From NCBI GenBank assembly GCA_027459505.1, contig DAIDIE010000020.1:1-64000 (forward strand): a stretch of DNA of 64,000 nt, given 5' to 3'. Positions 17,848 to 30,546 of this stretch are shown one piece after another. The notes below the pieces were generated by a model, which made no database searches, was not told the origin of the DNA, and saw only the letters and a list, made by a program, of their open reading frames with translations. Every line of letters begins with the position of its first letter. Positions within the stretch are counted from its first letter, which is position 1. The position numbers and the translations under genes were made by a program. This stretch comes from Acidobacteriota bacterium (lineage in GTDB: Bacteria > Acidobacteriota > Terriglobia > Terriglobales > SCQP01).

Positions 17848-17864
17848 ACTCCTTGGGGGTGGTT

Positions 17865-18152
17865 ATGCGGATGGTTTCTCTGCGCGAATTTCGTGTACGG
17901 GGTGCGCAGGCGCTGAAAGACGTCCCACAGGGCGAAACCGTTGTGCTTTCCGGCCAGGCGGGCCCGGCTTTTTTTCTGGTTCCCGTCATTGGCGATCTTG
18001 CAGTACAAGATCAGGAACTCAAGGCGGCCCTGGCGCTGGCCAGCCTGCGACAGGGTTGGAACCGTGCCGCTGCAAGAGGACTGGACCAATTGCAAGAGCA
18101 CGACATCGAGCGGGAAATCAGGGCGGCGCGGAAACGCCCCCGCCGCAAGTAA
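17865..18152 (+). CDS. Phd/YefM-like antitoxin
   Basis: 95 residues from ATG at 17865, preceded by a GGGGGTGG run; TTG at 17853 is an alternative. The N-terminus MVSLREFRVRGAQALKDVPQGETVVLSGQAGPAFFLVPV has the Phd/YefM pattern: a short strand, a helix, then a beta hairpin that binds DNA. The C-terminal half is charged and helical, as needed to wrap a toxin. Its stop overlaps the start of the PIN toxin by one base. It probably neutralises that toxin and represses the operon. Confidence 0.75.
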   Translation: MRMVSLREFRVRGAQALKDVPQGETVVLSGQAGPAFFLVPVIGDLAVQDQELKAALALASLRQGWNRAAARGLDQLQEHDIEREIRAARKRPRRK

Positions 18153-18559
18153 TGAAGCTGATCGTCATCGACACGAATGTCGTCGTCTCCGCCGCCCTCA
18201 GCGGCAACGCTCCTCCCGCGAAGATTATCACCGCATGCGTGCTACGCAAGCTTCAGCCAGTCACCTGTCCATTGATAACCGCCGAGTACGTTGAAGTGCT
18301 GAGGCGCCCGCGGCTGAAGATTGGCGATACTCCGCCCTTGTGGCTGTCTGTCTTGATTGAGCAGAGTTTACGTCTGGCGAATCCCGGGCGCTGGCCTTTT
18401 GACCTTCCCGACGCCAGCGACGAGGTATTCTTAGCGCTCGCCGCTGAAACAGGCGCCTGGCTGGTGACCGGCAACATCAAGCACTATCCCCCAAACAAGC
18501 GCGCCGGTGTGGTGGTGATTTCGCCCGCCGAGTACGTTCAGCGAGTGGCCCTGGATTAA
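18152..18559 (+). CDS. PIN-domain toxin (VapC-like)
   Basis: 135 residues. PIN-domain acids are visible: LIVIDTNVVVSAAL (first Asp), EYVEVLRRP (Glu), LPDASDEVFLALAAE (two Asp), and a late residue near WLVTGNIKHY. The TGN..HYP block identifies the subgroup of putative PIN toxins (COG1569). PIN toxins are Mg-dependent RNases that cut tRNA or mRNA. Translated with the upstream antitoxin through TAATG. Confidence 0.85.
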   Translation: MKLIVIDTNVVVSAALSGNAPPAKIITACVLRKLQPVTCPLITAEYVEVLRRPRLKIGDTPPLWLSVLIEQSLRLANPGRWPFDLPDASDEVFLALAAETGAWLVTGNIKHYPPNKRAGVVVISPAEYVQRVALD

Positions 18560-18695
18560 ACTGGCCCACGGATGGAGGCAACGCTGCCAGGATTGGCGTT
18601 GAGAGGGTTGGCCTGGTGCGCCGATGGCTGGCCCTCATTGGCCCCCTGAGTGGCCCAAGCGAAGTTCCTCTCCACGGGGCGGTGACTTTTGTGCG

Positions 18696-19430
18696 CTACT
18701 CGGAATCCAGTGCGACTGGGTCTTGCTTCGCATCCACATGGGGCCGGATATCGGCAAACCATTCCTTCAGCCGCGCCGGTGCCACGCCGCAATAGTACGC
18801 GAACTGAAGGACAAAGACGCGCAGCACGGTGCGCCAGACGCCATGGCGCAGGAAGCGGCGCGCGTTCAGGGTGAGAGGCGAGCGGACGGCGGCAAAGCGT
18901 CCCTGTGCTTTGATGCGGTGAACGAGTTCGTAGTCCTCAAACAGAGGCCAGGCGGGAAAGCCCTGGACCTTGTGGAACAGCTCGCGGCGGACAAAAATCC
19001 CCTGGTCGCCAAAGCAGCGGCGCAATAAGACGAGGCGCGTGTTCATTCCCCACGCCAGGAAATGGAGAGAGCGTGGCCGCGCTTCCGCAAAGCGCACGAA
19101 GAAGGCGCCTCCGGCGCTGTGTGGGTCGCGCAAAGCGGCGGTGATTTGCGCTCCGGCGTCCGGCGGAAGTTCGCAATCGGCGTGAAGGAAGACCAGCACA
19201 CCGGCATCCCCGGCAAGCGCGGCGCCAGCGTTTTGTTGGGGACCTTTGCCACGGGCATGGGTTACGACGGCAATCCCCGGGTCACTGGCAAGCCATTCCA
19301 AGCTGCCGTCGGTGCTGCCGCCGTCCGCGGCGATGATGCGCGCTCCGGGAATAGAGCGCCGAATCGAGGCGATACAGGCGGGCAGATTCGGCCGTTCATT
19401 CAGAACGGGCACAATGACGGCAATGTTCAT
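18696..19430 (-). CDS. Glycosyltransferase, TIGR04283 type (arsenosugar-associated)
   Basis: 244 residues, GT2 fold: IAVIVPVLNERPNLPACIASI, IIAADGGSTDGSLEWLA, GKGPQQNAGAALA, and VLVFLHADCELPPDA with HAD as the metal site. FGDQGIFVRRELFHKVQGFP then LFEDYELVHRIK is the acceptor side typical of TIGR04283. This family is named for its link to arsenosugar synthesis next to ArsM and ArsS. It is the last gene of the operon, overlapping the previous gene by 4 nt. The donor sugar and acceptor are unknown; addition of a ribose aglycone or a sugar to an arsenic nucleoside is inferred from context. Confidence 0.82.
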   Translation of the reverse strand: MNIAVIVPVLNERPNLPACIASIRRSIPGARIIAADGGSTDGSLEWLASDPGIAVVTHARGKGPQQNAGAALAGDAGVLVFLHADCELPPDAGAQITAALRDPHSAGGAFFVRFAEARPRSLHFLAWGMNTRLVLLRRCFGDQGIFVRRELFHKVQGFPAWPLFEDYELVHRIKAQGRFAAVRSPLTLNARRFLRHGVWRTVLRVFVLQFAYYCGVAPARLKEWFADIRPHVDAKQDPVALDSE

Positions 19431-20095
19431 GGCCGCTCCCCGGCGGAAGGGAATAGTTGCTCCATGAGCGCGGCCAGATGGGGAGCGCAGGCGCGACCGC
19501 CGCCAAGCAGGAGACGGGCACGTTGCAAGTCTTCCGCCGTATCCACGTCGAACCAGGGCGCCAGGGCGGCGGTGTTCATTTTGTGGCGGCGCAGTGCCGC
19601 AAGCGTTTCATTGCAGGTTTCCGGATGACTCCAGGCGATTCCCTGGAGCAATCCGCGAGGGCACGAGCGCAGACCCAGGAGCCAAAAGCCCCCATCCGCT
19701 GCCGGTCCGATCACCGCATCGGCGCAGGCGAGCGCCGCTACGGCGCTCTCAATCCGTTCCGGAGAGAGGGCGAAGGTGTCGGCGCCAATGGCGAGCGCGA
19801 TGGGCGTGGTCCGCAGGGCATGTTGCAGGGTTGCCTCGATGCGTGTTCCAAGATCCCCTTGTGGCTGATGAAACTGGGCCAGCTCTGGCATCGCTTCCGA
19901 TGGAAACGGGCCGGAGGTGGAGAGCAGGACCCGGCAGTCGGGCGCCGCGCTGGCGGCGGCTACGGCGTCGGCGATCAGGGCGCGCGCGACCAAAGCGGCA
20001 TTTTTGTCCCCGAGATGGGGAATCAGACGCGTCTTGGCGGCGCCCGCGATGGGCGGTTTGGCGAAAATGCAGATGGTGGTGCGAGCGGTAGTCAT
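19427..20095 (-). CDS. Nucleotidyl/glycosyltransferase, TIGR04282 type (arsenosugar-associated)
   Basis: 222 residues from ATG at 20095; the longer open frame to 20518 is antisense to the flavoprotein gene. ICIFAKPPIAGAAKTRLIPHLG is the TIGR04282/CofC-like start. IALAIGADTFALSP and DAVIGPAADGGFWLLGLR follow, and WFDVDTAEDLQRA is at the end. Members are DUF2064 proteins with a GT-A fold, annotated as arsenosugar-associated transferases. In many genomes TIGR04282 and TIGR04283 are adjacent, as here, with a 4-nt overlap. The canonical position in GADTP is F here. The reaction has not been proven in any family member I can name. Confidence 0.82.
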   Translation of the reverse strand: MTTARTTICIFAKPPIAGAAKTRLIPHLGDKNAALVARALIADAVAAASAAPDCRVLLSTSGPFPSEAMPELAQFHQPQGDLGTRIEATLQHALRTTPIALAIGADTFALSPERIESAVAALACADAVIGPAADGGFWLLGLRSCPRGLLQGIAWSHPETCNETLAALRRHKMNTAALAPWFDVDTAEDLQRARLLLGGGRACAPHLAALMEQLFPSAGERP

Positions 20096-20115
20096 TGGCT
20101 GTTCACCTCCGCTTG

Positions 20116-21651
20116 CTATCCGCGCCGCCATGAGAAGTAGCGCCGCAGCAGCGGTTTCATCCACGGGCGCAAGCGCGATTGCAAATGCTGATCGGCGGCG
20201 CGCTTGAATGCTTCCGCCACCGTCGGGTATGGGTGAATGACGGCGCTCAGATCGCCGACTGTCAGGTCCTGTTGGATGGCCAGCACCATCTCCGCGATTG
20301 CTTCGCCGGCGCTGGTAGAGACAAAGCTTGCGCCAGCCACACGCCCGCCGCGGCGCTCGACGTGAATGCGGGCAAAGCCTTCGCTGTTTCCGTCCAGGAT
20401 GGCGCGGTCCGTGTCCTTCAGATCCTTGGTGTAGGTCAGGTAACGGCGGGGACTTGCCTGGACATCGCCGGCGGTAATTCCAGCGTGCGCGATCTCCGGA
20501 TCGGTGTAGGTACACCACGGGATCACCAGATTGCTGACGCGCCTGCGCGCGCCAAAGAGCGCGTTCTGCACGACCAAGCGGGCCATGGCCTCGGCCGCAT
20601 GGGTGAACTGGAAGCGGGAACAGACGTCTCCGGCGGCAAAGATGGAGTGATTATGCGTTCGCAGCCGGTCGTCGACGAGCACTCCGCGAGCATCGGCGCG
20701 CACTCCGGCGGCCGCTAAGTTCAGTGCGTCGAGATTTGGTTTGCGGCCCGCGGCAATCAGAATCCGGTCGCAGGCAAGCCGTTGCTCGCCGGCGCCGCTC
20801 TTGACCGTCAACAGCTTTCCGGCGGTATGCTCCCCTTGGTTGCCCAAAACGGCAATGGGAGTGGCGTTGAGGAGAACCTGGATTCCTTCTTCCTGGAAAC
20901 GGCGCAACAGGATTGCGGAGGCATCCGGGTCATCCCTGGGAAGCAGGCGCGCTCCACGCGTGACGATCGTGACCTCGCTGCCAAGGCGGCGGAACGCCTG
21001 ACCCAGTTCGCAACCAATGGGGCCGCCGCCAATCACGACCAGATGTCTGGGGAGGCGTTCCAGGGAGAAAACCGTCTCGTTGGTGAGGTAGCCGGTCTCC
21101 TGGAGATGGGCAATCTCCGGAATCGCGGGGCTGGTTCCGGTGGCGATGACGGCTTTGTGGAACTGCAGCTTCTGGTCGTTGATCCGCAGGCAGTTCCGGT
21201 TCTCAAAGCGCGCTTCTCCGAAGAAAACATCGGCGCCGAAGCCCTGGAAGCGTTTGGCGGAATCGTTGGCGGCGATCTGGGCGCGCAGGCGTTCCAGGCG
21301 ATCGACGACGCGGAGGTAGTCGGTGGCCGGGCTTGCCGAGGTAATGCCGTAGCGCGCGGCGTCGCGGACAGCGGCGGCGGCGCGTGCGGAGGCCAGCAAC
21401 GCTTTGGAGGGAACGCAGCCGTAGTTGGTGCAATCGCCACCCAGGAAATGCGATTCGATCAGTGCCACGCGCGCTCCCAGCATGCCGGCCGCCGCGGCGG
21501 TGACAAGGCCAGCCGTGCCTCCTCCAATCACGACCAGGTTGTATTTTCCTTTGGCAACGGGGTTGACCCAACCGTGCGGGTGCAGATGGTTTTCCCGGAT
21601 TTCCCGCCAGAGACTATCTCTTTCAGGGATTGCGGAGGTGGTGGAGCTCAT
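20116..21651 (-). CDS. MerA-like FAD/NAD(P)-dependent disulfide oxidoreductase
   Basis: 511 residues. FAD site GGGTAGLVTAAAAGML near residue 42, redox cysteines in GGDCTNYGCVPSKALL (CxxxxC), NAD(P) site VVIGGGPIGCELGQAF, second FAD motif IFAAGDVCSRF and a dimerisation domain with VIHPYPTVAEAFK. It lacks an N-terminal HMA domain and the C-terminal vicinal cysteines of true mercuric reductase, so Hg(II) is unlikely to be the substrate. Such proteins commonly sit beside TVP38 genes, as here (4-nt overlap). In this operon a role in redox of arsenic or thiols is plausible but inferred. The C-terminus ends in a basic amphipathic stretch. Confidence 0.8.
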   Translation of the reverse strand: MSSTTSAIPERDSLWREIRENHLHPHGWVNPVAKGKYNLVVIGGGTAGLVTAAAAGMLGARVALIESHFLGGDCTNYGCVPSKALLASARAAAAVRDAARYGITSASPATDYLRVVDRLERLRAQIAANDSAKRFQGFGADVFFGEARFENRNCLRINDQKLQFHKAVIATGTSPAIPEIAHLQETGYLTNETVFSLERLPRHLVVIGGGPIGCELGQAFRRLGSEVTIVTRGARLLPRDDPDASAILLRRFQEEGIQVLLNATPIAVLGNQGEHTAGKLLTVKSGAGEQRLACDRILIAAGRKPNLDALNLAAAGVRADARGVLVDDRLRTHNHSIFAAGDVCSRFQFTHAAEAMARLVVQNALFGARRRVSNLVIPWCTYTDPEIAHAGITAGDVQASPRRYLTYTKDLKDTDRAILDGNSEGFARIHVERRGGRVAGASFVSTSAGEAIAEMVLAIQQDLTVGDLSAVIHPYPTVAEAFKRAADQHLQSRLRPWMKPLLRRYFSWRRG

Positions 21652-22307
21652 GCGGGCCTCTCAGAGATGTTCAATCCTTGTTCCCGCAGGGCCTTGCGCG
21701 CACCGCGCCGCACGATCCAGAAAAGGGCGATCAACACCGCCGCACCGGGAACAAAAAGCCAGGGCCGCCAGGAAGCTCCCGGACCGGGAGTGGCTTTGCT
21801 CAACGCGCCAAGCCGAAGCAGGGAACCGAAGTACACGTACAAAATAGTTGCGGGCAGCATGCCGACCCACGAAGCAAAGAAATAGTCGCGGAAGCGAACC
21901 CCAGTTAACCCCAGTGCGTAGTTTAATGGCGCAAATGGCAAGAAAACCGGATCAAGGCGCATCAGCAAAATCACCCGGAAGCCGTCGCTCGCAATGGCGT
22001 GGTCCAAAACCCGCAGCTTCTCCCGGCGCAGAAGCCGGTGTTCCAGGCGCTCACGGCCCAGGCGGCGCGCCAGCCAGAATGCCAGTGACGCGCCGATGAG
22101 GCTGCCCGGCATAACGATGAATACGCCGTAGAGGGGACCATAAATACTTCCCGCGCCCAGCGACAGAATTGTTCCTGGCACCAGAAAGACCGTTGCAGCG
22201 GCGTAAACAAGCGCATAGGTAACTCCGCCCCATGGCCCCAGCGCGCGAACCGCGAAGAATACCCGCACCAGGTGCAGCCGCCAGGAGAGGAGGAGAAGGC
22301 CGGTCAT
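21648..22307 (-). CDS. TVP38/TMEM64 (VTT-domain) membrane protein
   Basis: 219 residues with about five membrane segments. The VTT core is visible: VFLVPGTILSLGAGSIYGPLYG, then GSLIGASLAFWLARRLGRE, and LRLDPVFLPFAPLNYALGLT followed by RFRDYFFASWVGMLPATILYVYFGS. VTT proteins include DedA, lipid scramblases and metal-tolerance factors. It overlaps the MerA-like gene (ATGA) and the PiT gene. TVP38 plus a MerA-like flavoprotein is a recurrent pair, sometimes fused, with unknown transport substrate. Confidence 0.85.
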   Translation of the reverse strand: MTGLLLLSWRLHLVRVFFAVRALGPWGGVTYALVYAAATVFLVPGTILSLGAGSIYGPLYGVFIVMPGSLIGASLAFWLARRLGRERLEHRLLRREKLRVLDHAIASDGFRVILLMRLDPVFLPFAPLNYALGLTGVRFRDYFFASWVGMLPATILYVYFGSLLRLGALSKATPGPGASWRPWLFVPGAAVLIALFWIVRRGARKALREQGLNISERPA

Positions 22308-23464
22308 ACCACCCCCGCAAACAGGGACGCAAGGTGGGGCGCGGCTAGGCGGAGGATCAGGTAGGACCCGATTCCAAGCAGAGCCGCCAATGGGAGGGTG
22401 ACAAGCCAGGCGAGCAGGATGTTGCTGATCGCTCGCCGGTCCACTTGTTTGCCCTGACCCAATGCCAGTCCCATGATGGCTCCCGAGGCGACATGCGTTG
22501 TCGACATCGGTAAGCCGAGGGCCGCTCCCGGTCCAACCAGTGCGGCGGTGACGAAATTAGCGGCAAAGCCCTCCTGATGCGTCATTGGCGTGATGCCGAG
22601 AGCCAAAAACCGCGTGACCCTTCGTCCCGCGATCCAACTGCCCAGAACGATTCCTCCCGCCACTGCCAGATCCAAGGGAATCTGCTCGACCCTGCCTTTC
22701 GCAATCACGGCGGCAGCCAAGAGAAGGGCGACCATCTTGGGGCTATCGTTAAGTCCTCGCGCGAAACTGGTGGCCGCGCTGGTAAGCCAGTGCAAGTGAT
22801 TGATCGAAAGCCGCAGCGTCGAATCCGGCGCCACGGCGCCGGGTTCACAGCTTTCCAGATGCAATACCGGTGCTAGTGTACGCTCCGCGGTGGCCGCCAA
22901 AGCCGCCCCTGCGGCGATCGCACTAGCCCCGGCCAGGTATTCGTTTTCAACCCGCACACAAAGGCAATTGGAGTTGGCGGCCGGAAATTTGCTGAGAAGC
23001 TTTACAAAGACGGCCGTCAGGCAAAGGGCCGCCACCGGGCTCAACAAGAGGGGCAACAAAAGCGATCGCGCCATCACTACCCAGCGCACGCCCGCAAAGC
23101 CATAGGCCAGAATTCCGACTCCGGAAATGGCCCCAATAATCGCATGGGTGGTCGAAACCGGCCAGCTTTTCCAGGTGGACAGCGCCACCCAAAGCATGGC
23201 GCCGGCGATGGTTGCGGCGGCCGCGGTCAGGGCCGGGTGCACCCCTGCCGCGAACAGACCGCTTCCAAACGCCTTCAGCATGGCCTTGGCTACGATTGCG
23301 GAGGCGAGGCTTCCCAGACCAGTCCAGAGCACGCCCCATTGCACCGCCCGGGAAAGATTGCAGACCCCGCTGCCGGCAAGCGTGGCGACCCCTTTTGAGA
23401 CGTCGTTAGAACCATTGGCGAAGGCGATGGCCACGCCGAGAAGAAGGATTGCGGCTAGCGTCAC
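22304..23464 (-). CDS. PiT-family inorganic phosphate (arsenate?) transporter
   Basis: 386 residues from GTG at 23464, which overlaps the arsS stop (GTGA) with GGAGG nine bases upstream. It has ten or so membrane segments and the two inverted PiT signatures: AFANGSNDVSKGVATLAGSG near the start and the late LNDSPKMVALLLAAAV, plus two copies of the STTH block (WPVSTTHAIIGAISG and LPMSTTHVASGAIMG). PiT permeases import metal-phosphate with H+ and also carry arsenate. In an arsenosugar operon its likely role is arsenate or phosphate import, or phosphate supply that limits arsenic toxicity. This is inference. Confidence 0.88.
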   Translation of the reverse strand: MTLAAILLLGVAIAFANGSNDVSKGVATLAGSGVCNLSRAVQWGVLWTGLGSLASAIVAKAMLKAFGSGLFAAGVHPALTAAAATIAGAMLWVALSTWKSWPVSTTHAIIGAISGVGILAYGFAGVRWVVMARSLLLPLLLSPVAALCLTAVFVKLLSKFPAANSNCLCVRVENEYLAGASAIAAGAALAATAERTLAPVLHLESCEPGAVAPDSTLRLSINHLHWLTSAATSFARGLNDSPKMVALLLAAAVIAKGRVEQIPLDLAVAGGIVLGSWIAGRRVTRFLALGITPMTHQEGFAANFVTAALVGPGAALGLPMSTTHVASGAIMGLALGQGKQVDRRAISNILLAWLVTLPLAALLGIGSYLILRLAAPHLASLFAGVV

Positions 23465-24480
23465 AGCAGGCTTCCTCCGCAACTGGATCCCGCTCCCGCG
23501 GTGCAGCCGAAGCAGTGCGCCCCGGTGGCGATGTGGCGGTGGGCAAGCTCTTCAAAGGAGTCGATGTTCCAGAGGTTGAGGGGTTCGCCGCCGTCTCCCG
23601 CGGACTCCGTTGCCTGGCCCATGGCGGCGCGGAGCTCCATGCCCAGCATCTGGTTGAAGTCGCAGTCGTACAGGCGCCCATCCCATCCGACACTCACCAG
23701 CGAACGGCACATCAGTTGTGGAACCGTTGCGGAATTGAAGCTGCGCGCCAGCAGCAATTGGTATTCCTCAGTTCGCCCGCTTTGCGCCAGCGCCGCCGCG
23801 AAACGGCTGATGGGCATGTTGGTCAAGGTGAAGAGGTGGTTGAACTCGATACCGAATTCGGCGGCCAGGTGACGTTTGTAGTCGCTCTCCAGCGCCGTTT
23901 GCGGGGGCGGCAGCGTGGGTCCGAGCGGGTTGTAAACCAGGTGAAGCAGGAGAGCGCTGCCGGGCCGGCCAAATCCGGCGGCGTTGAGCTCATGCAGGGC
24001 CTGGATGCTCTTCTCAAAAACGCCGCGTCCGCGTTGCTGGTCAACGTTCCCGGCGGTGTAGCAGGGAAGACTGGCGATGATTTCAACGGCGTTTGCCGCG
24101 AGAAAATCCACCAGGTCTTCCTGTCCGGGTTCCAGCAGTACGGTGAGGTTACAGCGGTCCACCACATGCCGTCCCCAGCGCCGTGCCTGGAGCACCAGGC
24201 GGCGGAAGTTGGGGTTCAATTCGGGCGCCCCGCCGGTGATATCCACGCTAGCAATGGTGGGGCTGCACCGCAATAGCTCCAACACGCGCTCGGCAACGTG
24301 CGCCTGCATGCGCTCGGTACGTTTCGGTCCGGCTTCCACGTGACAATGCTGACAGGCCTGATTGCAAAGCTTCCCCACATTTACTTGCAGCGTGGTGACG
24401 GCGTCACGGCAGAGCGGTCTGAGCCTATGGCTCTGTAATGCGCTATCGAAGTCCAGCAGAACGGGGAGGGAGGTGGTCAT
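23461..24480 (-). CDS. arsS: Arsenosugar biosynthesis radical SAM protein ArsS
   Basis: 339 residues. The 4Fe-4S cluster motif CNQACQHCHVEAGPKRTE (CxxxCxxC) is near residue 35. DITGGAPELNPNF is the SAM-binding GGE-like region, RCNLTVLLEPGQEDL and SLPCYTAGNVDQQRG follow. The C-terminal domain is Cys-rich: MCRSLVSVGWDGRLYDCDFNQML and HCFGCTAGAGSSCGG, as in TIGR04167. In Synechocystis ArsS works after ArsM to attach the 5'-deoxyadenosyl group to dimethylarsenite. It shares a TGATG junction with arsM, so the two are translationally coupled. Confidence 0.92.
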   Translation of the reverse strand: MTTSLPVLLDFDSALQSHRLRPLCRDAVTTLQVNVGKLCNQACQHCHVEAGPKRTERMQAHVAERVLELLRCSPTIASVDITGGAPELNPNFRRLVLQARRWGRHVVDRCNLTVLLEPGQEDLVDFLAANAVEIIASLPCYTAGNVDQQRGRGVFEKSIQALHELNAAGFGRPGSALLLHLVYNPLGPTLPPPQTALESDYKRHLAAEFGIEFNHLFTLTNMPISRFAAALAQSGRTEEYQLLLARSFNSATVPQLMCRSLVSVGWDGRLYDCDFNQMLGMELRAAMGQATESAGDGGEPLNLWNIDSFEELAHRHIATGAHCFGCTAGAGSSCGGSLL

Positions 24481-25673
24481 CAGCAGCAGCCTCCGGGCCC
24501 GTTTGTGCCGCAAGCGCCCGCGGTGGGGGAGGAACTTTCACGGTAATCGCTGCCCTTGGTCTGACGCGCATCGCGCACCCGCATGCCGCCGGAACAAGGA
24601 AATGGCTCCGCCGCTTGGGGCGGAACCGGGATACGTGGTTCTATGGCATCAAAATGAGACTGATAGGGGTCTTTGCTGTACAGTTCGAAGGTCTTGGCGC
24701 AAACGGCGACAGGGATGCCGCGGCGCAGGAGGTGTCCATCGTCATCTTCAACCTGGCGAAACGGGCCGCGGTAAATAACCGCCTGCTTGCGTTCGAGACA
24801 GGGCCCCTGCTTGCCTTTCCAGGCCGCGACGGTGAGGCTGCGGAACTCAATGCCCTCCACCGTTTGCCAGGGCTGCCGCTGACGGTCGAGGACGGTGATG
24901 CCGTAAAAACCGGCCTCCTCGAAGGCGGCCAAAAACCGGTCTTGGCGCAGCGCCCCGGAAATGCACCCGCTCCAAAGCTCCGCGTCAGCCTGGAGGTGGG
25001 AAGGGATGTCTTCATCGCTGACGACGTCGGAGATGATGGCGCGGCCGCCACGGCGCAGGACGCGATAAATCTCGGCAAACAGCGCCGGCTTGTCCTGTGG
25101 GCGAACCAGGTTTAACACACAGTTGGAGACCACCACGTCAACACAGTCGCTGGCCACCAGCGGTTGCTCCCGCGCGCGCCGTTCCCGCTCCTGGTTGAAC
25201 GCCTGCAGGTCATGCGCGTTGCGAACCGGATGCGACGCTAAGTAGGCGTCCAGCCACTCCAGGTCGGTGCGCAGGTCCTGGATGCGGCCTTTGCGGAACT
25301 CCACATTCGCAAAGCCAACGTTACGGGCGACGGCAGGAGCGCTGCGCCGGGCCAGGGAAAGCATCTCGTCGTTCATATCGACGCCAATCACGCGGCCGGA
25401 TGGTCCCACGATCTGCGCGGCCAGGAAACAGGCCTTGCCGGCGCCCGACCCCAGGTCAAGAACGGTTTCGCCGGGAAGCAGATGCTTTGCCGGATTTCCA
25501 CAGCCATAGTCGCGCTCGATGACCTCACTGGGCAACGCTTCCAACAGCCGCTGGTCATATTCCACTGGGCAGCAAAGCGCGGGAGTGGTTTCCAAGGCGG
25601 CCGCCGCGTAACGTTCGCGGACTTCAGATTCATGATCGGGGAGAGGCGGGGTGGTCATAGAATGTGTGCTCAT
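24480..25673 (-). CDS. arsM: Arsenite methyltransferase ArsM
   Basis: 397 residues. SAM-binding motif VLDLGSGAGKACFLAAQIVG then VIGVDMNDEMLSLARR. Arsenic-binding cysteines are likely among those in TTPALCCPVEYD, in VVVSNCVLNLV and in LWSGCISGALRQ. The C-terminal 100 residues match the extension seen in arsenosugar-type ArsM (AVCAKTFELYSKDPY, FPCSGGMRVRDARQTKG) and end in a CGTNGPGGCC tail that may hold metal. It methylates As(III) stepwise, giving ArsS its substrate. The ATG overlaps the stop of the upstream membrane protein. Confidence 0.92.
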   Translation of the reverse strand: MSTHSMTTPPLPDHESEVRERYAAAALETTPALCCPVEYDQRLLEALPSEVIERDYGCGNPAKHLLPGETVLDLGSGAGKACFLAAQIVGPSGRVIGVDMNDEMLSLARRSAPAVARNVGFANVEFRKGRIQDLRTDLEWLDAYLASHPVRNAHDLQAFNQERERRAREQPLVASDCVDVVVSNCVLNLVRPQDKPALFAEIYRVLRRGGRAIISDVVSDEDIPSHLQADAELWSGCISGALRQDRFLAAFEEAGFYGITVLDRQRQPWQTVEGIEFRSLTVAAWKGKQGPCLERKQAVIYRGPFRQVEDDDGHLLRRGIPVAVCAKTFELYSKDPYQSHFDAIEPRIPVPPQAAEPFPCSGGMRVRDARQTKGSDYRESSSPTAGACGTNGPGGCC

Positions 25674-26368
25674 GATTGTTGCGGGTTAGAAGCCATTTCA
25701 GCCCGGACCTGGCTTGTAAAGCAGGTGCGCGCGGCGCTCAGGGCGACGCTCGGTTGGGCGCCAGTCCAGCGCCGGGCCAACCACGCGAGGCTAATGCCAT
25801 AAGCCGCGTGGGCGGTCAAAACCGTGACTGGAAAGCCCGCGGAAAACTGCAGTCCGAAGAAGCCGACGCCCAGTGAGCTGACGACCGGGCTCAGCATAAA
25901 TCCCACCCCGAGCGCTATCCCATAAACGGCGCCGGCCCATATCCGCCGGGCGCCAATTAACAGCGCATAAATGATGCCGAAGCTGACGCCGTTCCAAAAA
26001 TGATAAAGCCATCCGGCGATATCGGAGGCACGGTCGGGACCGTTGGCAAAACGGTTGAGCAGCAGCACGCCCATTAAACGGGGCAGGTTGCCCGGCATCC
26101 AGCCCAAGTGGTAGCCGGTCAGGCGAACGGCTTCCAGCGCAAGTGTCGCCACCGCTCCCGCCGATCCACCCCAAACGACAGCCCGCCAGATGACCGGCTG
26201 GCGTATCCGCAGAAACAAGGCGAGCGCCACCATTGCCAGTACCGCCGGCACAAGTAGATGCGTTGCGAGGCGAGAAAGGTCGCTATAGCCCGCCATGGCC
26301 GCTGGAAATATGTTGGGACCAATGGCCGCGAGCAACGTGAAAAGCGCAATCAGGATCATGGTCCGCAT
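25670..26368 (-). CDS. Multi-spanning membrane protein heading the arsenosugar operon
   Basis: 232 residues, about seven hydrophobic segments. ATG at 26368 has a strong GGAGG site (GGAGGTGCACCC then ATG); the longer open frame is a shadow. No domain name comes to mind. Conserved-looking stretches are GGSAGAVATLALEAVRLTGYHLGWMPGN, DIAGWLYHFWNGVSFGIIYALL and GFMLSPVVSSLGVGFFG. It overlaps arsM by 4 nt, so it is part of the operon. A transport or membrane-sensing function for arsenic compounds is possible but not shown. Confidence 0.7.
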   Translation of the reverse strand: MRTMILIALFTLLAAIGPNIFPAAMAGYSDLSRLATHLLVPAVLAMVALALFLRIRQPVIWRAVVWGGSAGAVATLALEAVRLTGYHLGWMPGNLPRLMGVLLLNRFANGPDRASDIAGWLYHFWNGVSFGIIYALLIGARRIWAGAVYGIALGVGFMLSPVVSSLGVGFFGLQFSAGFPVTVLTAHAAYGISLAWLARRWTGAQPSVALSAARTCFTSQVRAEMASNPQQS

Positions 26369-26423
26369 GGGTGCACCTCCAATGGGAGGCGGGGAGGAGT
26401 GCGCATCCTCCCCGCTGGAACCG

Positions 26424-26894
26424 CTACTGTGCCGCCATTTGCGCCAGCATCTGGAGCTTCTGGTCGAGCATCCGCGACGTCTTGGTGATCGCGTCGTTAT
26501 GGAATTGGCCGAGCAACGTTGAAGGTGTGTCAAAGCTGACGTAGGTCTTGCCGTTGCGGGCTTGGTACACGAAGATGCGGAGGGGAACGTAGAGGCCCAC
26601 CGCATGACTTTGCTGGAACAACATCTTTCCCACCGTTGGATTGCCGACCAGAAACAGGGTTGCCTTGAGCGGCAGCCCGGTCATCGACAACATGTTGCCC
26701 TGATCGACCGTGGCCATGATCATCATGCCGCCGTGGCTTACGCCAGCTTTCAGCGCGTTGACGGTCTGGTCGAAAGATTTGTGACTTTGCAGCGCGACGC
26801 GGCCGGTTTGCGCGGAGGCGGAGGCCAGCGGTGCAAGCGCCAGAAGAGTAAGCGCCAGTAGACGCCGTGCTGGAAGTAGATGGAGAAATCTCAT
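26424..26894 (-). CDS. Secreted DUF302 protein
   Basis: 156 residues. Signal peptide (LLALTLLALAPLASASAQ), then the DUF302 fold: SFDQTVNALKAGVSHGGMMIMATVDQG, LFLVGNPTVGKMLFQQSHAVGLYVPLRIFVYQ and KTYVSFDTPSTLL. DUF302 proteins are small alpha/beta proteins found near redox and metal genes. It lies 55 bp upstream of the operon's first gene on the same strand, so it may be its first cistron. The gap between them holds a GGAGG-containing leader but no clear terminator. Confidence 0.8.
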   Translation of the reverse strand: MRFLHLLPARRLLALTLLALAPLASASAQTGRVALQSHKSFDQTVNALKAGVSHGGMMIMATVDQGNMLSMTGLPLKATLFLVGNPTVGKMLFQQSHAVGLYVPLRIFVYQARNGKTYVSFDTPSTLLGQFHNDAITKTSRMLDQKLQMLAQMAAQ

Positions 26895-27081
26895 TGCAAA
26901 TCCCTTTCCTGAAAAGCATTCGGCGGACGTTCCGTTCCGTGGTTTCCGGATTGCGCGCCTACCCGCTTGATCCCGCAGAGTCGTCCTCGTTTCGCGAAAA
27001 AGTTTTCGCCGGAAATGAGAAACGAAATGCTTGCTGCGGCATCATGCTAGCCGTGCCCCTTCTTTTGGGGGTGCGCTTTTC
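26895..27081. promoter_or_regulatory. Divergent intergenic region between DUF302 and the ECF sigma gene
   Basis: 187 bp shared by the leftward arsenosugar block and the rightward sigma gene. It contains an A/T-rich patch (TTTCGCGAAAAAGTTTTCGC near 26990) with partial dyad symmetry. I cannot point to exact -35 and -10 boxes. This is the obvious place for control by the sigma factor. Confidence 0.4.
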
Positions 27082-27732
27082 ATGACCACTGATCCTCAAC
27101 CTGTGGCTGCCAGCGGCGCCAGTCCGGAAACGGAGCGACTGCTGGCGCGAATCCGCGCCGGCGAGAAGGGTTGTTTTCTCGAATTGATTCAGCCCTACGC
27201 GCGCAGCATCTACCTTGTCGCCAACTCGATCCTGAAAAACCGGGAGGATGCCGAGGAGGTTGCCCAGGAGACGGTCTTCAGAGCGTTTCAGCGACTCGAT
27301 CAATTGCGCGACATTGGCAGTCTGAAAAGTTGGCTGCTCCAGATTGCGGTCAATGAAGCCCGTCAGCGCCTCCGGCATCGCCAGCGCCATCCCTGTGTTT
27401 CCCTTGACGAGGAATTCGGCGACGAGGCTCAAGTAATGCCGCGGCAGTTGGCCGACTGGCGCGAAATCCCTTCTGTGACGTTGGAGAGGAAGGAAACCAG
27501 GGAGCACCTGCGGCGCGCGTTGGAGCGCCTGCCGCCCCATTACCGGCAGGTCTTCCTGTTGCGGGATGTGCAGCATTTGGCGGAGAAGGAGGCGGCGCAA
27601 GTGCTTGGCGTTTCGGCTAGCACGGTCAAGATGCGGCTGCACCGCGCCCGCCTGCAATTGCGCGAGGATCTCGCCCCGGTGTTCAGGAAACGGTGGAAGG
27701 ACCGGCTTTCCGCGCTTTGGAGTAAATCATGA
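27082..27732 (+). CDS. ECF-type RNA polymerase sigma factor
   Basis: 216 residues from ATG at 27082. Region 2: IQPYARSIYLVANSILKNREDAEEVAQETVFRAFQRL, then KSWLLQIAVNEARQRLRH. Region 4: LERLPPHYRQVFLLRDVQHLAEKEAAQVLGVSASTVKMRLHRAR, which contains the helix-turn-helix that reads the -35 element. The stop overlaps the ATG of a zinc-finger anti-sigma factor. Divergent to the DUF302/arsenosugar block, so a role in its induction is likely but unproven. Confidence 0.9.
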   Translation: MTTDPQPVAASGASPETERLLARIRAGEKGCFLELIQPYARSIYLVANSILKNREDAEEVAQETVFRAFQRLDQLRDIGSLKSWLLQIAVNEARQRLRHRQRHPCVSLDEEFGDEAQVMPRQLADWREIPSVTLERKETREHLRRALERLPPHYRQVFLLRDVQHLAEKEAAQVLGVSASTVKMRLHRARLQLREDLAPVFRKRWKDRLSALWSKS

Positions 27733-27962
27733 TCAGTTGCGAGCACGTGATCCACGAATTGTCTTCGTATATTGACGGCGACAGCGATCCCGAATTGCGC
27801 CAGGCGATCGAACGGCACCTGCGTGGATGCCGGCGCTGTTCAGTCGTACTCGACTCCACCCGCAAGCTTCTCCTGATTTATGGTGACGAAGATGTGCTGG
27901 AGGTGCCAGCCGGCTATTTCGAACGGTTGCGAACGTCGTTTTTGGCCCGCGTAAGTCGCTAG
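27729..27962 (+). CDS. Zinc-finger anti-sigma factor (short)
   Basis: 77 residues, ATGA overlap with the sigma gene. CEHVIHELSSYIDGDSD, then IERHLRGCRRCSVVLDS gives the H-x3-C-x2-C zinc-binding anti-sigma domain. Unlike membrane anti-sigma factors it has no transmembrane segment, so it may sense redox or metal state in the cytoplasm, as ZAS proteins do. The thiol-zinc site could react with arsenite; this is inference. Confidence 0.85.
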   Translation: MISCEHVIHELSSYIDGDSDPELRQAIERHLRGCRRCSVVLDSTRKLLLIYGDEDVLEVPAGYFERLRTSFLARVSR

Positions 27963-28360: not shown

Positions 28361-29521
28361 TCAGCCCGAGCAGCAGGAAAGCTTACTAACATCTCTGGTG
28401 AACGATTGGGCGGTGAGTTTGAGACCCTCAACCATGGTGAGATAGGGGAAGAGTCGATCCGCCAGAACCTTGACTTGCATACCGATTGAGATCGCAAGGG
28501 CCGCTGTCTGAATCAGTTCGCCCGCTTCCGCCGCCACCGCCTGAGCGCCCAGAAGGACACCTGAATCCTCATCGACGACAACCTTAATGAAGCCGCGGGT
28601 GTCGAAGTGGACCAAGGCGCGCGGCACCTGATCGAGGGCAAGGACGCGAGTTGCGACCTTTTGCCCGGCGGCGCGCGCTTGCGCTTCGGATTGCCCGGCG
28701 GTGGCAATCTGCGGGTCGGTGAAGATCACCGCCGGCATGGCTGATAGGTCCAGGGTTGCCACGCCGCCGGTCATGTTGATCGCCGCCCTGTTTCCTCCCG
28801 CAGCCGCGATGTAGACGTGCTGCGGGAGCGCCGTACAGTCACCGGCCGCATAAATTGCAAGGTTGGTCGTCGCCATGTGGTCATCGACGACAATGGCGCC
28901 GTTCCCGTTCACCCTCACTCCGGCGCTGTCCAGGCGCAGTTCCGCGGTATTCGGGGTACGGCCGGTGGCCACCAGCAGTTTGTCGCAAAACACGGGTCCA
29001 GCACCAGCGGCGACGGTGAACTGATTGCGGGAGAATGCAATCGAATGCACGGCAGCATGCTCGCGGATTTGAATGCCTTCGGCGGCGAATACCTCCGCCA
29101 TGGCGCGCCCAATCATCGGATCCTCGTGGGAAAGTAAACGGCTTCTGGCCAGGATCGTGACCTGGCTGCCAAGCCGCGAAAAGGCCTGCGCGAGTTCGAC
29201 GGCGACGGTGGATGCACCGAGAATCGCCAGGCGTGGCGGAATATCCGGTGTCATGAGCGCATCCGTCGAAGTCCAATAAGGTGTTCCGCTGAGTCCGGGG
29301 ATGTCCGGAATCGCCGGGCGGGCGCCTGTGGCGATCAAGGCACGGTCAAAACCGATCAAGTCGCGGCCGCCTTCGGAAACACATTCGATGTGGCTGCCAT
29401 CGACAAACCGCGCTCTGCCCCGCAGGACTCGAACATTCGGAAAAGAAGCCAGGAGCTCCTCGTACTTGGCGGACCGCAGGCGGTCAACAAGCGCTTGCTG
29501 CTGGCTTCGTGTTGTGCCCAA
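28361..29521 (-). pseudogene. merA: Mercuric reductase, 5'-truncated
   Basis: 386 residues from a TTG; an in-frame TGA lies nine codons further upstream. It matches MerA from QQQALVDRLRSAKYEELL through ALIATGARPAIPDIPGL, LAILGASTVAVELAQAFSRLGS, YAAGDCTALPQHVYIAA and the C-terminal KLSCCSG with the vicinal cysteines that hand Hg(II) to the active site. The first 85 or so core residues are gone: the FAD Rossmann motif and the redox CxxxxC. It cannot reduce mercury as it stands. It ends 90 bp before the start of the beta-lactamase-like gene, so the break is near 29545. Confidence 0.8.
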
Positions 29522-29610: not shown

Positions 29611-30546
29611 ATGAAGACCCGCACGAACCTTCTGTCCGTTATGGTTGCGCTTGGCTGCTTTACGCCGCTGGCGGGCGCCTCCGCCCCGGCCGCTGCCAAG
29701 CCGGCTGCCACCGCGCTTTCCGGGCAAATCCGGGCTGACGCGGCGGCGTTTGGCGGTCACGTGGCCTTTGCCGCGGTGGACCTGAAGACTGGAAAGCGCG
29801 TCAGCCTGCATGCGGAGCGCCGCGTACCCAGCGCTTCGGTGATCAAGCTGCCGGTAATGGTGGAAGCCTTCTACCTGATGCAGCAGGGCAAGCTGCGCTG
29901 GTCGCAGCCGGTGCGCGAGACCGCTTTTGATCGCGTTCCCGGCTCCGGGATTCTCCGATTTCTCTCCCCCAACCTGCACCTCACTCTGGGCGACGCCATC
30001 ACGCTGATGATCGAGTTGAGCGACAACACCGCTGCCAACATCGTGATCCGCCATACCGGCATCGCGCCGGTCAACGACCGGATGCGCGCCCTGGGACTGA
30101 AGAACACGCAGTTGCTGGCCTTTGTTTTTCACTCGCCGCACCAGCGCACCGCCGATCAGAAGCAGTTTGGGTTGGGATTCACCACGGCGAGCGACATGGT
30201 TCGGCTGCTCACCATGATTGAGCGGCACCGGATTCTGACTCCCGCCGCCTGCGAGCAGATGCTGGGCATTTTGCGCGCGCAGCAGGATAACGAAGCCTTT
30301 CCCCGGGAGACGGCCGATTTCCCGGGCGTCACCTGGGCTCATAAAACCGGCGCCCTGGACGCCGTCCGCAACGATGTGGGCATTGCGGAGGGCCCGGATG
30401 GAGCGGTGGTGATGGCGGGTTTTGCCTACGACTCGCCCAGTCAGGAATGGACGGCGGAAAATCCCGCGCTGCTGGTTTTGGCGCATTTGGCGCGCACGGC
30501 TTTGACCGGATTTTACGGCGTGCCCGCGGTGGCGGCAGCGCATTAG
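29611..30546 (+). CDS. Class A beta-lactamase-like serine hydrolase
   Basis: 311 residues with a signal peptide (VMVALGCFTPLAGASA). Active-site motifs: SVIK (SxxK) near residue 76, SDN in MIELSDNTAANIV, and KTG in TWAHKTGALD. The omega-loop glutamate that deacylates penicillins in class A enzymes has no clear counterpart in GLKNTQLLAFVFHSPHQRT. So it may be a slow or non-lactamase esterase/peptidase of the beta-lactamase2 family. It is periplasmic, and transcribed away from the merA remnant. Confidence 0.8.
   Translation: MKTRTNLLSVMVALGCFTPLAGASAPAAAKPAATALSGQIRADAAAFGGHVAFAAVDLKTGKRVSLHAERRVPSASVIKLPVMVEAFYLMQQGKLRWSQPVRETAFDRVPGSGILRFLSPNLHLTLGDAITLMIELSDNTAANIVIRHTGIAPVNDRMRALGLKNTQLLAFVFHSPHQRTADQKQFGLGFTTASDMVRLLTMIERHRILTPAACEQMLGILRAQQDNEAFPRETADFPGVTWAHKTGALDAVRNDVGIAEGPDGAVVMAGFAYDSPSQEWTAENPALLVLAHLARTALTGFYGVPAVAAAH

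Follow-up and report, generated by a model that had tools for sequence, protein, structure and literature searches.

We analysed a 64,000-nucleotide stretch of DNA (the window) from an Acidobacteriota bacterium (assembly GCA_027459505.1, contig DAIDIE010000020.1), in which eight minus-strand genes form an operon around the arsenic methyltransferase ArsM and the radical SAM enzyme ArsS. Our preferred reading, which we regard as evenly poised between being right and wrong, is that the operon makes and handles an arsenosugar-type organoarsenical through a joined pathway of ArsM, ArsS, a methylthioadenosine (MTA) phosphorylase (MTAP), TIGR04282 and TIGR04283. The ArsM-ArsS core is securely predicted to dimethylate As(III) and then to attach a 5'-deoxyadenosyl group to dimethyl-As(III). 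To our knowledge, no genes converting the product of ArsS to arsenosugars have been identified so far. The cluster and its relatives offer an order of steps that can be assayed, namely phosphorolysis, nucleotidyl transfer and glycosyl transfer, and raise two testable ideas, one concerning the middle steps of the pathway and the other a PiT permease with a CxC loop (CxC-PiT).

The operon and its recurrence around ArsS

Translation of the region showed that all eight open reading frames (26368-18696) are intact, with zero internal stops. They run 5' to 3' in the order DUF6789 membrane protein, ArsM, ArsS, PiT, TVP38, MerL (our label for the MerA-like oxidoreductase of the operon), TIGR04282 and TIGR04283. 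Overlaps of 4 nt join the membrane gene to ArsM, ArsS to PiT (GTGA, with the PiT start at the GTG at 23464), PiT to TVP38, TVP38 to MerL and TIGR04282 to TIGR04283, while ArsM and ArsS overlap by 1 nt (TGATG, with the ArsS start at the ATG at 24480); the sole gap in the run is the 20 nt between MerL and TIGR04282. These measured junctions agree with a first-pass annotation, which had described an eight-gene minus-strand run with 1-4 nt overlaps and one small gap before TIGR04282, and family and motif matches confirmed that it had named ArsM, ArsS, TIGR04282 and TIGR04283 correctly.

The window ArsM scored below the cut-off of each curated NCBIfam ArsM model, with 331 bits against 500 for NF040538, 205 against 263 for NF008823 and 134 against 400 for NF038099, the arsenosugar-type ArsM, a model with which the related locus L037 (loci and genomes are given by L numbers) scored 535 bits. 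The protein is homologous to solved ArsM structures (E 3e-33), and its cysteines C35, C58, C185 and C237 were invariant in an alignment of 10 sequences. By its cysteines and homology it is clearly predicted to be an ArsM, outside all curated ArsM subfamilies. In-frame stops noted in about 20 ArsM matches proved, on checking, to be ordinary terminal stop codons at the end of the profile. The radical SAM motif CX3CX2C of ArsS (C39/C43/C46) was likewise invariant in a separate ArsS alignment.

The same core of ArsM and a radical SAM ArsS is described for the arsenosugar pathway of Synechocystis, where ArsS makes the adenosylated arsenical (Xue 2019; Cheng 2021, as cited in PMC8552651 and PMC12159101). 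The window differs in its ArsM subfamily and in holding PiT, MerL, TIGR04282 and TIGR04283 all in one operon; by locus tag, the Synechocystis TVP38 gene slr0305 (PMC3836016) lies two tags from arsM slr0303 (PMC4010505). The arsinothricin cluster arsQML (PMC8552651) likewise combines ArsM with a permease and a radical SAM enzyme that forms a C-As bond, but its ArsL transfers a 3-amino-3-carboxypropyl group and not adenosyl; its ArsQ is a GntP-type exporter, and it has no TIGR04282, TIGR04283, TVP38 or MerL.

In a same-phylum sample of 297 genomes, ArsS was present in 46. The listed genomes of the same order had it only in the case of the window's own genome, which makes the operon patchy in its distribution. 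We collected the neighbourhoods of these ArsS genes and of 80 named loci in other phyla, taking their gene content from profile searches of all open reading frames. When all open reading frames up to 7 kb from any of 127 ArsS genes were clustered, the operon's own gene families ranked highest. Counts near these loci were about 38 for ArsM, 37 for TIGR04283, about 34 for MerA-like genes, 28 for TIGR04282, 23 for TVP38, 20 for a TIGR04169 peroxidase-like gene, 12 for PiT and 8 for nucleoside phosphorylase; all 12 PiT genes had the same orientation as ArsS, and almost every one was adjacent to it. For 62 further ArsS genes flanked on either side by 8.9 kb or more of sequence, neighbours found within 4.5 kb of ArsS versus those at 4.5-9 kb numbered 16:0 for ArsM, 2:0 for PiT, 12:0 for TVP38, 17:0 for MerL and 22:1 for TIGR04283. 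Since neighbours cluster within 4.5 kb and almost none lie beyond, the arrangement is not due to chance. A search for the same gene order, proposed in the first-pass annotation, recovered ArsM-ArsS-PiT-TVP38-MerL-TIGR04283 in L051 and L064 (same phylum, other families), and loci with the same genes were found in other phyla too. Any suggestion that PiT, TVP38 and MerA-like genes are missing from related clusters fails because of their recurrence near ArsS. Taken together, the sequences indicate that the gene set is assembled from separable modules.

Two further neighbours of ArsS were observed. The TIGR04169 gene (carboxymuconolactone decarboxylase family) precedes ArsS in its 20 loci, including L038, L043 and L047, mostly without PiT, TVP38, MerL and the TIGR pair nearby, and these appear to represent another kind of ArsS locus. 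In Burkholderiales/Rhodocyclales, a conserved, roughly 340-aa protein with no Pfam match lies near ArsS (L120, L141, L156, L129, L139, L150, L160), accompanied in the first three by PhnD and PhnE-like genes.

Candidate steps beyond ArsS

Adenine loss would be needed for an adenosylated arsenical to become a sugar conjugate, and the operon holds no gene for this step. The complete route that the first-pass annotation had seen in the operon was hence not borne out; in relatives, an MTA phosphorylase is present at this point. The operon of L064 ends with MTAP (290 bits with TIGR01694; cut-off 274.85), and MTAP adjoins ArsS or the TIGR04282/TIGR04283 pair in L086, L094, L095, L101 and L153, which represent several phyla. 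Scores with the same model were 334 bits for L095, 314 for L153 and 285 for L094, with L089 and L101 just below the cut-off. L153, the cultured strain Microbulbifer rhizosphaerae CECT 8799, has MTAP grouped with ArsS, TVP38, MerL, TIGR04283 and TIGR04282. On Burkholderia glumae plasmids, TIGR04282-TIGR04283-MTAP occurs within the ArsS region, and the window's own genome has an MTAP outside the operon (L163, 314 bits, TIGR01694). MTA, the normal substrate of MTAP, is a 5'-deoxy-5'-substituted adenosine, as the arseno-nucleoside would be, and the chemistry of the enzyme therefore fits. We infer from these gene associations that MTAP may act on the arseno-nucleoside in this pathway. A literature search with partial coverage returned no paper connecting MTA phosphorylase with arsenosugars.

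TIGR04282 had been taken, with TIGR04283, as one of a pair of glycosyltransferases. An AlphaFold model of TIGR04282 built from six sequences (pLDDT 92) instead suggests a nucleotidyltransferase fold with CofC/FbiD as the nearest enzymes. The nearest solved structure was 3cgx (Z 27.4), followed at Z 20.4-22.8 by 2i5e (CofC-like), 7p97 (3-phosphoglycerate guanylyltransferase) and 6bwh (FbiD), with IspD, TarI and GlmU further down; among the matches listed, the top ones (Z 14-27) were nucleotidyltransferases. In a profile search, the KTRL nucleotide motif and the Asp residues of DVDTxxDL (DxDxxxDL) aligned with FbiD and 7p97; identity to the CofC/FbiD guanylyltransferases (2i5e, 6bwh, 7p97) is about 20%. 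Judged from the model, TIGR04282 is thus most likely a CofC/FbiD-type nucleotidyltransferase, a role that would suit activation of the phosphorolysis product ahead of its transfer. L074 and L076 carry TIGR04282 and TIGR04283 as a fusion. For TIGR04283, a literature search of partial coverage found no paper going beyond annotation.

The joined pathway would then run as follows. ArsM would dimethylate As(III) and ArsS would add a 5'-deoxyadenosyl group onto dimethyl-As(III); an MTAP-type enzyme encoded elsewhere in the genome may remove adenine with phosphate to give 5-deoxy-5-dimethylarsinoyl-ribose 1-phosphate; TIGR04282, as a CofC/FbiD-like nucleotidyltransferase, may activate this sugar phosphate; and TIGR04283 may pass on the activated arseno-sugar, with glycerol or a lipid perhaps serving as acceptor. 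A fatty-acid-hydroxylase-like family (PF04116, tested in L086) adjoins TIGR04283 or MTAP in L085, L086, L123, L144 and L064, a neighbour that hints at a lipid acceptor or product.

Several points weigh against this pathway. Of the 127 ArsS loci, only about 8 have MTAP nearby, and most genomes would retain this gene for methionine salvage alone. The window ArsM scores under all curated ArsM cut-offs. The closest relatives of TIGR04282 use phospho-acids rather than sugar phosphates, and activation of the aglycone is for this reason an alternative. In the phylum sample, most genomes with TIGR04283 or MerL lack ArsS, so the product of their module need not contain arsenic. All steps past ArsS, as well as the roles of PiT, TVP38 and MerL, are inferred from sequence, and whether arsenic would pass through TVP38-MerL-TIGR04282-TIGR04283 is the main uncertainty.

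The CxC-type permease, the TVP38-MerL module and rival readings

The window PiT has two ND and two STTH repeats, in common with the phosphate transporter TmPiT (6l85), which it matches and whose fold family it shares. Its subfamily differs from canonical PiT proteins in the second repeat, which reads GxNDxPK and not GANDVAN, and in a central loop with a CxC and a further Cys. When a profile of ArsS-linked PiT proteins was run on the PiT proteins of the phylum, 21 full-length members scored above 370 bits and the others, except partial fragments, below about 190; the CxC was found in 20 of the 21 and in none of nine canonical proteins. Ten of the 20 genomes with this subfamily also have ArsS (p 2e-4), and for CxC-PiT genes without an adjacent ArsS, ArsM lies within about 2 kb in L244, L246, L248, L249 and L250. 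In other lineages the place beside ArsS is filled by PstB-type (L113, L117, L142, L154) or PhnD-type (L089, L120, L141, L156) transporters; in the former four, which are Nitrospira-type and delta-proteobacterial, a Pst-like phosphate ABC transporter comes after ArsM(-ArsR)-ArsS. The operon PiT is the only PiT of the window genome, which in addition has a Pst system and ACR3 efflux. CxC-PiT is likely, on these associations, to have an arsenic-linked role in oxyanion transport, and we conjecture that its loop cysteines might detect trivalent arsenic or bind it. A PiT subfamily tied to arsenic methylation through a conserved CxC loop would extend the list of arsenic genes by one transporter.

MerL resembles mercuric reductase MerA in its C-x4-C active site and in the Tyr of the C-terminal PYxT motif (HPYPT in MerL), but it scores under the cut-off of the MerA model (TIGR02053, 379 vs 454 bits), has no NmerA domain and ends in FSWRRG, without the MerA-type terminal CC. 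Two cysteines outside the redox pair, C214 (GPIGCE) and C380 (PWCTYT), were invariant in 9 of 9 MerA-like proteins. TVP38 and MerL are fused in L089, L097, L098, L129, L137 and L158, and fusions were found beside ArsS. Fusions of DedA proteins of COG0398, to which TVP38 belongs, with a pyridine nucleotide-disulfide oxidoreductase have already been reported (PMC10127716); the window has the same pair as separate genes within an arsenic operon. At MerL loci away from ArsS, TVP38 was nearby in 25 of 40, usually directly upstream, and most such pairs stand alone. The sequences thus mark TVP38 and MerL as a pair that is often fused.

Co-occurrence was counted in the 297 draft genomes, a sample of one phylum in which shared ancestry is only partly controlled; ArsS was present in 46, MerL in 67, TIGR04283 in 91 and TIGR04282 in 103. 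Among the MerL genomes, 62 of 67 have TIGR04283 (odds ratio 86, p 4e-35), and the proportion is 35 of 38 in those that are free of ArsS (odds ratio 113). The association holds at the level of genera (17 of 19, odds ratio 58, p 6e-11) and persists at that of families (81 labelled families in the sample). ArsS genomes have TIGR04283 in 36 of 46 cases (odds ratio 13) and TIGR04282 in 42 of 46. ArsS is absent from 55 of the 91 TIGR04283 genomes and from 38 of the 67 MerL genomes, and of 51 MerL loci that are not near ArsS, 8 have TIGR04283 within 10 kb. TVP38, MerL and the TIGR pair, previously presented as steps of an arsenic pathway, are therefore tied more to each other than to ArsS. As MerL and TIGR04283 co-occur without ArsS, the name 'arsenosugar biosynthesis glycosyltransferase' is unsafe outside ArsS clusters. 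If the main work of TIGR04282 and TIGR04283 lies outside arsenic metabolism, many annotations of genomes are over-read, as are papers that deduce arsenosugar synthesis from these families (e.g. PMC13077682). TVP38 and MerL may be a membrane and thiol-redox pair that is used with both TIGR enzymes in the absence of ArsS as well and was recruited here. We tentatively suggest, short of an even chance, that TVP38-MerL-TIGR04282-TIGR04283 is in most hosts a conserved arsenic-free pathway, here plugged onto ArsM-ArsS via MTAP, whereby arseno-ribose would feed into a pre-existing glycosylation route with nucleotide activation, and that CxC-PiT represents a novel, arsenic-responsive class of oxyanion permease.

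The same counts may indicate that the operon joins two systems, which is a realistic possibility though one we hold at less than half weight. ArsM-ArsS, with CxC-PiT, would make a simple arseno-nucleoside or riboside, TVP38-MerL-TIGR04282-TIGR04283 would be a module of its own for envelope glycoconjugates or glycolipids with no part in processing arsenic, and the two would share an operon as responses to thiol or metalloid stress. Apart from the MerL-TIGR04283 association, including that in genomes free of ArsS, and the TVP38-MerL pairs that mostly stand alone where MerL lies away from ArsS, this agrees with the proposal that DedA proteins of COG0398 are phospholipid flippases (PMC10127716). 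ArsM is also rarer where MerL and TIGR04283 occur without ArsS (11 of 35 vs 132 of 216 other ArsS-free genomes, p 0.0015), but the ArsM model used for this comparison misses the window's own ArsM. Strong co-occurrence of ArsS with TIGR04282 and TIGR04283, the tight overlaps and the repeated linkage across several phyla favour a shared pathway instead.

Two other readings give the transporter a larger part. A full import route, in which PiT takes in arsenate, MerL or another reductase yields As(III), ArsM and ArsS act on it, the TIGR pair glycosylates it to a new product and TVP38 or the membrane gene exports that product, appears very unlikely. It accords with the gene content of the operon and with the three unrelated kinds of phosphate-type transporter that recur beside ArsS, and PiT-family permeases such as E. 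coli Pit are known routes for arsenate; however, TIGR04282 does not resemble a glycosyltransferase, the genome also has the Pst system and ACR3 efflux, and MerL-TVP38 is widespread without ArsS. A defensive role is improbable as well, if somewhat less so: high phosphate uptake by CxC-PiT would outcompete arsenate, and MerL would keep thiols reduced and so supply ArsM and ArsS with trivalent substrates. ArsM substrates are indeed trivalent (PMC8552651) and the MerL active site is of the disulfide-oxidoreductase type, but MerL has Tyr and not His at the position of the catalytic dyad (HPYPT), closer to MerA than to disulfide reductases, and plain phosphate uptake leaves the CxC loop unexplained.

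Flanking genes and features of the region

The features of the operon and its surroundings are collected in Table 1. The DUF6789-like membrane gene starts at an ATG preceded by GGAGGTG, and its product has a homologue in L049 with 50% identity; its AlphaFold model was all helical and unreliable (pLDDT 51), too poor for a structure search. A DUF302 gene, on the same strand as the operon and 55 nt upstream of the membrane gene, may be the first, and so ninth, gene of the operon, since the two are also paired near TVP38-MerL-ArsS in L049.

Table 1. Predicted genes in and around the ArsM-ArsS operon
Feature	Coordinates	Strand	Matches and remarks
DUF302 protein, 156 aa, N-terminal signal-like segment	26424..26894	-	PF03625 45 bits
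Membrane protein, DUF6789-like, 232 aa	25670..26368	-	PF20587 33.6 bits, above gathering score
ArsM	24480..25673	-	NF040538 and NF008823 matches below cut-off; solved ArsM structures match; 4 Cys kept
ArsS, radical SAM, predicted to adenosylate dimethylated As(III), 339 aa	23461..24480	-	TIGR04167 427 bits, cut-off 300
PiT-family permease, distinct subfamily with central-loop CxC, 386 aa, GTG start	22304..23464	-	PF01384 202.6 bits, cut-off 33.7
TVP38/DedA-type VTT-domain membrane protein, 219 aa	21648..22307	-	PF09335 101.6 bits, cut-off 33.9
MerL, MerA-like FAD/NAD(P) disulfide oxidoreductase, 511 aa	20116..21651	-	NF004991 636 bits, cut-off 620
TIGR04282/DUF2064 protein, predicted nucleotidyltransferase, 222 aa	19427..20095	-	TIGR04282 151 bits, cut-off 134
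TIGR04283 family-2 glycosyltransferase, 244 aa	18696..19430	-	TIGR04283 199 bits (cut-off 182), PF00535 62 bits
Extracytoplasmic function (ECF) sigma factor	27031-27732	+	Divergent from operon; candidate regulator only
Short CxxC protein, anti-sigma-like, partner of ECF sigma factor	27729-27962	+	Candidate regulator only
merA remnant, probable pseudogene	28361-29521	-	PRK13748, ends SCCSG
Class A beta-lactamase-like (by eye)	29611-30546	+	
Antitoxin and PIN-domain toxin-like pair (by eye)	17853-18559	+	

About 18 other loci have a sigma factor similar to that of the window no more than 5 kb from ArsS, with varying orientation, and the Burkholderia glumae cluster also holds a sigma factor/zf-HC2 pair; as ECF sigma factor genes are common in genomes, the window pair is a candidate regulator only. 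A promoter scan of 18300-27300 found no sigma-70-like site.

Beyond the sigma factor pair, 2.5 kb from the operon, lies the remnant of a true merA, which is without the NmerA domain and the N-terminal FAD and active-site part of the core and is probably a pseudogene. The beta-lactamase-like open reading frame adjoins it, and at the other end of the operon the overlapping toxin-antitoxin-like pair is convergent with the last gene.

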